DNA of 64,000 nt. Origin: Halopiger goleimassiliensis (GTDB taxonomy: Archaea; Halobacteriota; Halobacteria; Halobacteriales; Natrialbaceae). The position numbers and the translations under genes are program-made. The stretch is from NCBI RefSeq assembly GCF_000455345.1, contig NZ_HG315690.1, forward strand, positions 2,890,339-2,954,338. Direction: 5' to 3'. This document shows positions 50,349-53,864 of this stretch, piece after piece (position 1 is the first letter of the stretch; each line of letters starts with the position of its first letter). The notes beneath the pieces are model-generated. The model saw only the letters and a program-made list of their open reading frames with translations, was not told where the DNA came from and ran no database searches.

Positions 50349-51515
50349 TCAGATCGGATCGTCGACCTCGAGAGCGGCCTCGAGGCGGTCGCGTTCCTCC
50401 CGCAGGCGCTCGAGTTCGTCCGCGACGCGGCCGTCCGCCAGGCGTTCTCGCTCGTCCGGGGACAGCTGAGCGACCGCTTGGGCCGCCGTCTGGAGGCGAT
50501 CGAAGTCGTCGTCGTAGGTCCGCCGACGGACCGCACGCAGGGCCTCGACGACGTCGTCGTCCGCGACGCGTTCGACGAACGGGCGCAGTTCGCGGGTGCG
50601 CCGGCGGAGGACGCCGGCGGGGCCGGGCGGCCAGTCGACGGTCAACGCGTCGGCGTCGATACCGTCGAGGTAGGTCTGCTGGGTCGCCACGCGGCGCTTG
50701 AGCACGTCGGCGTCCGCGACGTAGTGCGAGAGCTTCGACCGGGAGTAGTCGGCGAACTCGAGCAGTTCCGGGATCGTGTGCTCGCCGTCGGGGCTGTCCC
50801 GGACGTACTCGCGCAGGTCCGCCGGCGGTCGCGCGAAGTCGACGAACGGGTACCACCGACTGCGTTCGAGCAGGTCGAACACCTCCCGGGCCGAGGCTTC
50901 GAGACGGTAGTCAGAAAAGGCCTCGCGGATCGCCTCGTTGTAGCGCTCGATCGGCTCGCGAAGGTCCGCGACCGGGGCGTCTAGATCCGCCGTTGCGAGT
51001 TCGAGCAGCCGTTCGCGCTCGTCGATCTCGTCGCCGACCTCTCGCAGGCGGACGGACGCAGCCTTCCGGGCCTCCGCGAGCGCCTCGCGGGCGTCCTCGC
51101 GGTCCTCGAGCAGGTCGGCGTACCGCGATGCGGGCTCGAGGGCGTCGTGGGCCGCCTCGAAGTCCGACTCGCTGAGGCGGCGCTTGTCGATGGCGTCCAG
51201 GGCGTCCTCGAAGGCCTCTCGATCCCGGAGGTCGTCGGGCAGGTTCTCGACCAGGGTCGCGAACTGGCCCTCGAGTTCCACGTAGGCCTTGAAGTTCTCC
51301 CGGCCGGTACCGGTCGCCCGGTCGACGTAGTCCTCGAGCAGCGTCGTCGCCGATCGGTAGGCCTCGGCCGTCCGTTCGACGGTCTCCCGGCCGTGGTCGT
51401 CGATTCGCTCCTCGATGCGTTCGAATCGGCCGCGGGCGGCCTCGAGGCGCTCGAGCGGCGTCGCGTCCGGGCCGTCCGTCTCGTCGGCCGCGGGGGAGTG
51501 GACGCGTTCGCTCAT
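50349..51515 (-). CDS. Conserved haloarchaeal coiled-coil protein
   Basis: ATG 51515 gives 388 residues. It is almost entirely charged helix: heptad-like stretches at about 20-100, 130-190 and 330-385 ([19 protein letters not shown]). The middle (about 220-270) is more globular ([20 protein letters not shown]). There is no membrane segment. It overlaps the hisI stop by four bases (51512-51515), so the two are translationally coupled. The family occurs in haloarchaea but its function is not known. Confidence 0.72.
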
Positions 51516-51880
51516 TCGTAGACGGCGTCGGGATCGAACACTTGCTCGCCCACGTCTTCCCCGTCGATCGTCCGGTAGAAACACGACCGGCGGCCGGTGT
51601 GACACGCGCCACCCTCCTGATCGACCAGGTAGAGGAGGGTATCGGCGTCGCAGTCCACCCGCACTTCGTCGACGTGCTGGACGTGACCGCTCGTCTTGCC
51701 TTTCTGCCACAACTCGTCCCGGCTCCGGGAGTAGTAGTGAGCCAGTCCGGTCTCGCGGGTTCGCTCGAGGGCCTCTGGGGAGACGTAGGCGAGCATCAGG
51801 ACCTCGCCCGTCTCGGCGTCCTGTGCGACGGCGGGGACCAGGCCGTCCTCGCCGAAGTCGACCGCAACGGCGTCGTCCAT
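51512..51880 (-). CDS. hisI: Phosphoribosyl-AMP cyclohydrolase
   Basis: The 122-residue single-domain enzyme opens the purine ring in step three of histidine synthesis. [18 protein letters not shown], then [20 protein letters not shown], and [27 protein letters not shown] supply the zinc Cys and magnesium Asp ligands. The separate hisE (pyrophosphohydrolase) is not fused. ATG 51880 is the natural start. Confidence 0.96.
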
Positions 51881-52133
51881 AGTCGACCGATCGTTCGTCG
51901 GAGCGATAGGTCTTTTGCCGCTGGCACGGTGGCCGGGACCGACCGCGGTCGCAGTGGCGAGTTCGAGACGCCCGTGGTCGACTTCTGAACCCGTCATCGA
52001 ACGGTTCACACAGGAACCACGACGCGGAATTCGTCTCGAGTTCGGCACGCGCGTCAGCGGGGATCATGGAACGAACGTGCTACGGTCACCACAGGTGTTT
52101 TGTGAGCCACTCCGGTAGCTAGCGATAGCCACA

Positions 52134-52529
52134 GTGAAGGCAGAATCAGCGGGGGACCGAGACCGGGCGCGGCTGCGGCTCTTTCGGCGACCGTATTCGG
52201 AACTGGTAGTCGCGATTCTCGTAACGGGGGCGTTCTACGTCGACCGATGGGGAGGATCACCCCCCGCAGTACCGGACCCGGCGACGACCGCGGTGGTCGT
52301 CGTTCTCGGCCTCGCCGTCGGCTTCGTTTCGGCCGTCACCAGCGATACCGGAGACGGTCGACGGGTGACCCGCCGGCACGTCATCGGCTTCCTCGTTGTC
52401 GCCGCGATCGCCGTTTCCCTCCCGCCGGTCGACACCCCCGCAGTCGTCGATATCGGCCTGCTCGCCGCGGTCTGGGGTGCGGCCGGCGGAAGCGTCGCGA
52501 CGTCGGTGCGCGACGGTACCGATCAGTAA
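52134..52529 (+). CDS. Four-helix membrane protein convergent with the halocin-like gene
   Basis: GTG 52134 gives 131 residues with four hydrophobic helices (about 22-38, 48-68, 82-100 and 103-122) and charged termini. No motif is recognised. Its stop is 14 bases from the stop of the cysteine-rich precursor on the other strand. It could be unrelated or serve immunity, but nothing in the sequence decides this. Confidence 0.6.
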   Translation: MKAESAGDRDRARLRLFRRPYSELVVAILVTGAFYVDRWGGSPPAVPDPATTAVVVVLGLAVGFVSAVTSDTGDGRRVTRRHVIGFLVVAAIAVSLPPVDTPAVVDIGLLAAVWGAAGGSVATSVRDGTDQ

Positions 52530-52543
52530 CCGGTGATCCTGCG

Positions 52544-53536
52544 TCAACAGATGATAATACCGTCACAAGCCTCGCACGGACAACAGAAGTATCCGAAATC
52601 GTCTTCCTCGATGATCTCCGCCACACAGACCGCACACGAGGGGGTCGCCCACCCACTCGAGCCGACGCAGGTGCCACAGGCGACGATTTCGACGGAGTAC
52701 ACGTTCGCGAGGTCGGCGATACAGTCCGTATCGGGAATTCCACACGGGGCACAGAGTGTCAACGGGTTCGCCAACAGGGAGTTGCAGTCACAGCCCTGCG
52801 TCGATACCTCTCTGTTTTTCTCCACTGGTAACGTCAGCGAGTCCGTCTCTTGCCTAACGTCGGCGTCGTCCGGCCAGAGCTTGGTGTGCTCGATCACGAC
52901 CGGAACGGTGTCGATCGAGTCGAGATCGACGTCACGTTCGCGCAGTTCCCGTTCGACCTCGGTGGGGTCACCGTCGTAGTCGACCGTTCGGGTAGTGACG
53001 TATCCGTGCGGGTCGATTTCCGCTGCAGTGTTCCAGACGATCGCGCCTGTTTCGGCGACGTCACCGTCGTCCTCGAGATCGAGGGAGTCGCTGTGTCTAG
53101 CGTCGAACGGGATTCTGACGAACTGCCACTCCCGATCCTGGTAGTTCGTCTCGTACCCCGTCACCGAACTCAGATCCGGCTCGAGACCGCGGGAAACGAG
53201 CTCCTGCCACATCGCGTTGACCCGCTCGTCGGACCGCGCGTCCGAGACGAGGCGGTTCTTCTCGCGTGCTGTCAGTTCGACCGTCTCCTTGTCCGGATCG
53301 AGTGAGACGGTCTCCGCGGCCGAAACGTTCGTGATCGACGCTCCAGCGAAGAGGCTTGCAACCACGCCCGCGAGGAACGATCGCCGGTTCCCGTTCCGGG
53401 ACTCTCGAGCGGCGTTCCACGCTTCGACACAGCCGCCACCGCTCTCGACCGCGTCGTTCAAACGCTCTCGGTGCGCTTCGGTGTCAGTCTGTTCGGACGT
53501 CGTGGCGTCAGTTTCTCGATCGATTTCGTCAGTCAT
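52544..53536 (-). CDS. Tat-exported precursor with 14-Cys C-terminal peptide (halocin C8-like candidate)
   Basis: The 330-residue protein has a hydrophilic pre-sequence and then a Tat signal (NRRSFLAGVVASLFAG, RR at 51-52). A hydrophilic middle domain (about 75-245) follows. The last 82 residues hold 14 cysteines (249, 251, 262, 265, 271, 287, 290, 301, 304, 318, 319, 321, 324, 330), several as CxxC. Halocin C8 is made from a Tat precursor whose N-terminal part gives immunity and whose Cys-rich C-terminus is the peptide antibiotic. The layout matches that plan, though the Cys pattern differs. A metal-binding surface protein is the alternative. The promoter is AT-rich and unlike the flanks. 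Confidence 0.75.
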   Translation of the reverse strand: MTDEIDRETDATTSEQTDTEAHRERLNDAVESGGGCVEAWNAARESRNGNRRSFLAGVVASLFAGASITNVSAAETVSLDPDKETVELTAREKNRLVSDARSDERVNAMWQELVSRGLEPDLSSVTGYETNYQDREWQFVRIPFDARHSDSLDLEDDGDVAETGAIVWNTAAEIDPHGYVTTRTVDYDGDPTEVERELRERDVDLDSIDTVPVVIEHTKLWPDDADVRQETDSLTLPVEKNREVSTQGCDCNSLLANPLTLCAPCGIPDTDCIADLANVYSVEIVACGTCVGSSGWATPSCAVCVAEIIEEDDFGYFCCPCEACDGIIIC

Positions 53537-53544
53537 TTTCTAAC

Positions 53545-53630
53545 ACCCGGATGGAAATTGATTACATTCTACGTAAAGCCCATTTTGCCTATACAATTAT
53601 GCTATTAATATGTTATAATAAGAGGGCGGA
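53545..53630 (-). promoter_or_regulatory. AT-rich promoter of the halocin-like gene
   Basis: Upstream of ATG 53536 the DNA turns AT-rich: GTTATAATAAG, TGCTATTAATATG and TACAATTATG lie within 53590-53625. Several TATA-like sites would give an mRNA with a leader of roughly 50-60 bases. The contrast with the GC-rich flanks suggests an acquired or strongly regulated gene. Confidence 0.45.
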
Positions 53631-53717
53631 ATAGACGGCCCTCCCCGGCAAACGTTGGACCAGAAGCGCTCCCCTCCCGTTCCGGTCCTGCATCGCGCGG
53701 CTCGGCTCACGGTGGTT

Positions 53718-53864
53718 CGAGAGAGCTACGCTCTCTCGTCATCTCGCAGAACTTCGCTCCGCGACGACTCATCGAGGTGGCTTCGCCACCTCGAGATCAC
53801 GAAAGGCGCTTCGCGCCTTTCGATCGACTTCGCCGTTCGCCTAATCGCGGCGCGTCGCGCCGCG
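53718..53864. repeat. Array of perfect short hairpins
   Basis: The gap 53537-53933 holds no credible gene. Four perfect inverted repeats follow one another: CGAGAGAGC with GCTCTCTCG (53718-53738), CGAGGTGGC with GCCACCTCG (53773-53793), CGAAAGGCGC with GCGCCTTTCG (53800-53822), and CGCGGCG with CGCCGCG (53846-53864). The first has a TAC loop, and the second and third have a TTC loop. They lie 70-200 bases beyond the aminotransferase stop, on its 3' side. Confidence 0.6.

Follow-up and report, generated by a model that had tools for sequence, protein, structure and literature searches.

A Tat-signal precursor with a 14-cysteine C-terminus and a conserved membrane neighbour in Halopiger goleimassiliensis: a probable archaeocin and its candidate immunity protein

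We describe in Halopiger goleimassiliensis a 330-residue protein that is probably a Tat-exported, proteolytically matured archaeocin precursor, encoded beside a small protein with three predicted transmembrane (TM) segments (hereinafter 3-TM) as its likely membrane immunity protein. It combines a conserved leader preceding the Tat signal, the signal itself, a hydrophilic middle domain, a short junction and a hydrophobic cysteine-rich C-terminal cargo. The corresponding features in the window, i.e. the whole 64,000-nucleotide stretch of DNA analysed, are:

52134..52529 (+): 131-residue, 3-TM membrane protein, candidate immunity protein; convergent to the precursor, with 14 bp between the 3' ends
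52544..53536 (-): precursor ORF, 330 residues, ATG start (from the ORF list and the homologue in Actinarchaeum halophilum)
52547..52795 (-): Cys-rich cargo, residues 248-330, 14 Cys, GRAVY +0.7 (from composition and profile A6)
52796..52807 (-): V-S-T-Q junction, residues 244-247, candidate processing site (from motif enrichment)
52808..53314 (-): hydrophilic middle (propeptide) domain, residues 75-243 (from profile similarity to the HalC8 precursor middle)
53315..53389 (-): twin-arginine signal, residues 50-74 (NRRSFLAGVVASLFAGASITNVSAA) (from sequence; RR invariant in alignment A2)
53393..53536 (-): pre-Tat leader, residues 1-48, with GGGCVEAW at residues 33-40 (from alignment A2)
53537..53636 (-): AT-rich upstream region, 34% GC, putative promoter (from GC content)

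Architecture of the precursor and its relation to halocin C8

The precursor contains 15 Cys in total, 14 of them at residues 249-330, its last 82 residues. This density is about 30 times that of the remaining called window genes, whose Cys content averages 0.54%; at that background the binomial probability of at least 14 Cys in 82 residues is about 3e-17, and none of the other called window genes has more than four in a stretch of this length. The cargo shows the CxxC pairs CAPC, CGTC, CAVC and CCPC and ends in CC-P-C-EA-C. The Tat motif, RRSFLAG at residues 51-57, fits the twin-arginine consensus and is followed, as read from the sequence, by a hydrophobic stretch. Upstream of the ORF, GC content falls to 34% over 100 bp vs 67% window-wide, a feature general to such precursors (mean 0.39, n=22, vs 0.58, n=209). 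The first-pass annotation had thus described the ORF and its 14 terminal Cys exactly, and its CxxC pairs, CC-P-C-EA-C knot, Tat signal and AT-rich promoter region are all present; the conserved pre-Tat leader GGGCVEAW, the V-S-T-Q junction and the adjoining 3-TM gene are additions to it. Four perfect GC-rich hairpins, with 9-10 bp arms and 1-3 nt loops, also occupy the intergenic stretch (53718-53864) that separates the aminotransferase gene from the precursor promoter.

Pfam and NCBIfam scans of the precursor returned no model above cut-off, the weak matches to the Pfam models SIMPL, Patatin and Siva all lying below it. Specifically, up to an E-value of 1 it matches neither TIGR04449 nor NF040679 (the halocin C8 precursor-like equivalog; criterion >200 bits) among NCBIfam models, and PF22862 (Hac8_like_N) is absent from its Pfam matches. 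Comparison of the window cargo with the HalC8 cargo by hhalign gives 0.2%, with E-values that are rough given alignments of 1-11 rows. Since neither TIGR04449 nor PF22862 matches, the precursor is not a member of the HalC8 family, which NCBIfam, Pfam and profile comparison together rule out. Hence, the earlier designation as halocin-like stands for the architecture (Tat signal, hydrophilic middle, hydrophobic Cys-rich end), for the leader that precedes true HalC8 cargos in relatives and for the bacteriocin-style neighbourhoods, but every profile tested speaks against HalC8/S8 membership. The accompanying suspicion that the Cys-rich part is unlike C8 proved correct in the HMM comparison, which gave no TIGR04449 match, and in the count of 14 Cys vs 10. 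This absence of homology between the cargo and HalC8 itself counts against the archaeocin reading.

The same genome does encode a genuine halocin C8-domain precursor elsewhere: its only TIGR04449 match (G000:C1:1403032-1403241, locus L007; 53.5 bits) is a different gene, with a 125-residue, 4-TM gene downstream, and its PF22862 match, below cut-off, is likewise another gene. In a genome of the same family (L006), TIGR04449 is matched over cut-off (60.5 bits) by a precursor lacking the GGGC leader, with a 10-Cys peptide; we take this sequence to be halocin C8.

One leader and its exchangeable cargos

At E <=0.001, 24 of the 392 genomes of the order match the precursor protein, the lower-scoring matches having mainly the leader in common. 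The closest full-length homologue, from a different family, is that of Actinarchaeum halophilum YIM 93972 (CP071306.1), with 58% identity and all 14 tail Cys conserved. A scan of genome contigs with the window protein alone found no relatives; repeated with the two-row alignment A4, it detected A. halophilum and Haladaptatus halobius. As for a mobile or viral origin, there was no match in phage records and two viral-contig scans yielded no relatives, while two plasmid records do carry relatives, both annotated as hypothetical. The Halorubrum trapanicum plasmid pCBA1232-01 (NZ_AP017570.1) has two leader precursors among transposases, each with a regulator diverging from it and, downstream, a small membrane gene. 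On plasmid phalar01 of halophilic archaeon DL31 (CP002989.1, Halar_0084), downstream of the precursor lie two small membrane genes together with genes for an ABC ATPase and a large membrane protein (permease). These plasmid precursors resemble that of the window in their GGGC leader, Tat signal, Cys-rich tail and directly downstream small membrane gene. They differ in having the membrane neighbour on the same strand and a divergent regulator, whereas the neighbour in the window is convergent; further, the DL31 cargo is unrelated to that of the window, and DL31 adds the ABC ATPase and permease.

More generally, several related loci encode a divergent regulator of the HVO_A0261/FilR1 type (all three regulators scanned contain HVO_A0261_N and FilR1_middle domains) and an ABC ATPase with a permease, the best NCBIfam scores of the ATPase including, below cut-off, the lantibiotic-protection ABC subfamily. 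These additions argue for the archaeocin reading; that neither a regulator nor an ABC transporter lies beside the window precursor counts against it.

The leader was defined from an alignment of 18 precursors (A2), comprising the window segment and 17 from search matches, in which G23, G25, E28, R41 and R42 (segment numbering) are invariant and C26, W30 and R37 are conserved in at least 90%. The window leader, with its Tat RR, scores 85.9 bits against the resulting HMM, a match by construction, being one of the 18 training rows. Above 55 bits the HMM recovers 25 distinct ORFs, of which 21 combine a Tat signal with a Cys-rich tail and four are truncated; among the 21, those at L017, L022, L032, L035 and L054 have TIGR04449 halocin C8 tails. 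That the leader thus finds Tat-bearing, Cys-rich ORFs, true TIGR04449 cargos included, supports the archaeocin reading. With the family defined by a Cys-rich C-terminus of at least 8 Cys in the last 90 residues, the window precursor has 14. Altogether, the one leader, GGGCxExW, precedes at least six sequence-unrelated Cys-rich C-termini, the six cargo groups never exceeding 17% probability in mutual profile similarity among the groups compared.

The leader is not specific to Cys-rich precursors, which again counts against the archaeocin reading. A2 has matches at E <=0.001 in 366 of the 392 genomes, and the weak ones inspected were short leader-only ORFs or other proteins, leading us to reject the GGGC leader as a halocin-specific marker. 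Its motif GGGCxEIWE occurs in short ORFs of about 40-100 residues in many haloarchaeal genomes (L004, L030, L100, L101 and others), and the leader also forms the N-terminus of 226-276-residue proteins without Cys-rich cargo (those of L059-L065 and L095-L097, at 226-252 residues, among them). The segment may be a docking or sorting micro-domain. Separately, broken-looking leader-bearing precursors, truncated or interrupted by stops (L093 1395-1625, L019, L027, L051/L103, L127), suggest frequent loss of such genes.

The window cargo, as profile A6, has matches in 11 of 224 genomes. Its conserved core consists of eight Cys, arranged as C, C and then three CxxC pairs, with A-C-x-x-C the most constant element; whereas the window and A. 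halophilum cargos have 14 Cys, other relatives have 8, 10 or 12. Such even-numbered additions fit disulfide pairs without proving them. The cargo matched no solved structure by sequence, and structural modelling was of too low quality (pLDDT 38.5 and 50.9) for a disulfide pattern to be seen. Window-type cargo also occurs without the leader (L025, L203-L206), indicating that leader and cargo recombine.

These cysteines could alternatively belong to a secreted metal-binding or redox protein, with CxxC pairs holding zinc, copper or iron and a C-terminus that stays attached. The presence of four to five CxxC motifs, which could bind metal and to that extent count against the archaeocin reading, fits such a protein, as does the Tat pathway, which exports folded, cofactor-holding proteins. 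However, the hydrophobicity of the cargo (GRAVY +0.7), the variable Cys number of its relatives, the swapping of unrelated Cys patterns at the same position and the membrane neighbour matched to the cargo make this unlikely. The recombination of cargos behind one leader is evidence for the archaeocin reading instead.

The cargo is also set off by a junction: of 71 precursor-like ORFs, 23 have the motif [VIL][STA][TAI]Q within 20 residues ahead of their first cargo Cys, as against five occurrences in 11001 positions elsewhere. This 43-fold enrichment (by odds) is for a motif picked after inspecting the sequences, and in a set of 71 that includes near-duplicates and at least one unlikely member (L163).

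The membrane neighbour and the question of immunity

The A. halophilum precursor has, in the same convergent position, a 3-TM homologue 36% identical to the 131-residue protein of the window (E 2e-29). The 57 called genes of the window and the 21 of the A. halophilum locus have none in common but the precursor and its 3-TM neighbour, which favours the archaeocin reading. A third genome (G117) carries a decayed cargo at 0.2 kb from a likewise decayed copy of the 3-TM gene. Beyond these, the association extends to other precursors: in loci that were selected by leader or cargo match rather than randomly, 16 of 22 precursors have a small protein (at most 160 residues) with at least two TM segments within 150 bp downstream, vs nine of 151 other genes of the same loci (Fisher p 7e-12). 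For these counts, a simple script served for gene calling in place of a trained gene finder, and TM segments were assigned with a Kyte-Doolittle window. Three loci were dropped in arriving at the 22: L143 as a duplicate of L133, L136 as its precursor was the last gene listed, and L137 as no precursor was called; L136 does have a 51-residue, 2-TM gene downstream. A small membrane neighbour is likewise present in all five loci found later through the cargo profile alone. The adjacency is weaker across halocin-C8-type loci taken regardless of leader (18 of 44 vs 6 of 41 controls, on short loci).

The neighbours also appear matched to their cargos: membrane-protein similarity tracks cargo similarity (Mantel r 0.73, with 0 of 5000 permutations as high), although with Spearman ranks significance is lost (0.03; 1840 of 5000). 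Examples of such co-varying pairs are window/A. halophilum, H. trapanicum/L138, L140/L141 and L142/L149. Such enriched and cargo-matched neighbours favour an archaeocin with a dedicated immunity protein. Counting against it, six of the 22 precursors, HalC8 itself included, have no small membrane gene downstream, and distant relatives of the 131-residue protein, found at 25 places in 21 of the 392 genomes, occur in genomes without a precursor beside them, lying next to window-type cargo in only three of those genomes.

The 3-TM gene was also considered as an ordinary neighbour of hisI and rejected as such: the hisI loci of 19 relatives (the window locus being the 20th) have no 3-TM, precursor or aminotransferase gene within 1.5 kb. 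As a separate observation, hisI lies within about 5 kb of the precursor in three loci (window 51512-51997; L136 3792-4166; L145 12024-12389), those of L136 and L145 being named by sequence resemblance only; this proximity possibly reflects a favoured insertion site or chance.

Co-variation of peptide and membrane protein, along with the divergent HTH regulators beside the precursor in several relatives, would also be expected of a secreted Cys-rich signalling peptide (pheromone), with the small membrane neighbour as receptor or exporter and the regulators as the response part. We judge this quite improbable: no regulator adjoins the window gene, none of the small membrane proteins scanned against Pfam and NCBIfam has a recognised domain, and the HalC8-type cargos behind the same leader point to antimicrobials.

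The first-pass annotation had suggested immunity for the middle domain, by analogy with HalC8. By profile, this domain weakly resembles that of the HalC8 precursor (73% probability over 59 columns, vs at most 0.31% for three control proteins). The similarity falls in a part modelled as two helices and then strands: the first 70 residues of the domain form a predicted helix-turn-helix followed by strands (pLDDT about 65-83), and a Foldseek search with the model gave no match at E <=0.001. A helix-loop-helix of HalI is reportedly the subject of Mei et al. 2008. Two 201-residue Tat proteins, L024 1297-1899(-) and L026 1252-1854(-), match the window middle domain and lack a Cys-rich cargo; they are possible orphan immunity or decoy proteins. 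A HalC8-style single-gene system, with immunity residing in the middle domain alone and an incidental 3-TM neighbour, could draw on the profile match, the predicted helix-turn-helix and these free-standing proteins, but it is rather improbable given that PF22862 does not match and that, apart from the precursor, A. halophilum has conserved nothing but the 3-TM gene. The conservation of this separate small membrane protein next to the precursor weakens a sole role for the middle domain in immunity, the 73% match notwithstanding.

Proposed mechanism and comparison with known systems

In the archaeocin reading, the pre-Tat GGGCxExW segment would probably keep the precursor soluble or aid its cytoplasmic targeting, after which the folded precursor would cross the membrane by Tat. 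An extracellular protease would then cut at or near the V-S-T-Q junction, freeing a hydrophobic peptide of 83 residues that could contain up to seven disulfides. This peptide may act on competing haloarchaea, probably at the membrane, and the convergently encoded 3-TM protein would protect the producer, perhaps helped by the attached middle domain. On a broader view, for which we regard the chances as roughly even, these loci represent a cassette-like archaeal warfare system. Here, one pre-Tat GGGCxExW sorting segment and propeptide would be reused before many unrelated disulfide-rich toxins, each paired with a matched small membrane immunity protein and in some cases located on a plasmid in the company of transposases; the window cargo would be a new disulfide-rich peptide class with no relation to the halocins described so far.

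Sequences have been established for few archaeal antimicrobial peptides, and precursors of this class escape searches based on the HalC8 domain. Together with the junction motif and a membrane neighbour matched to the cargo, the common leader provides a practical handle for finding such genes; the matching also makes immunity directly testable, each small membrane protein predicting protection against one named peptide. A 2019 mBio article by Makarova et al. on antimicrobial peptides and polymorphic toxins in archaea is said to have enlarged the halocin C8 family and put forward more predicted archaeocins; the idea as such, and perhaps some of these genes too, may therefore already be in print. 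In searches of the open-licence literature, no title or abstract opening described this leader or cargo class. A recent archaeome screen left out peptides with more than one cysteine (PMC12408343).

In terms of design, the arrangement would work like bacterial class II bacteriocin operons, which encode a small peptide with a short double-glycine or Sec leader and a small membrane immunity protein, sometimes with an ABC transporter and regulator; the window system instead has predicted Tat export and a large propeptide. Activation of an exported haloarchaeal precursor outside the cell by proteolysis, as proposed here, has published analogues, which together with seven subtilase (PF00082) matches in the H. 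goleimassiliensis genome favour the archaeocin reading. PMC12893001 presents halolysin cleavage as experimentally shown for HmHapP (HFX_0892) and as reported for HalH4 with the halolysin HlyR4; unlike in the window precursor, the active part of HmHapP is an α-helical N-terminal peptide, and the word cysteine is absent from the main text of that paper. HalC8 is the other analogue: its precursor is exported by Tat and cleaved to give an immunity part and a peptide (PMC11509114). The window precursor shares with it the Tat signal, the hydrophilic N-terminal/middle part with weak similarity over 59 columns and the hydrophobic Cys-rich C-terminal peptide, and some TIGR04449 precursors have the window's pre-Tat leader; it differs in a cargo unrelated by profile, with 14 Cys vs 10, and in the separate 3-TM neighbour conserved at the window. 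Thus, while HalC8-type halocins are already known, what is new here is a different peptide class with a conserved membrane partner.
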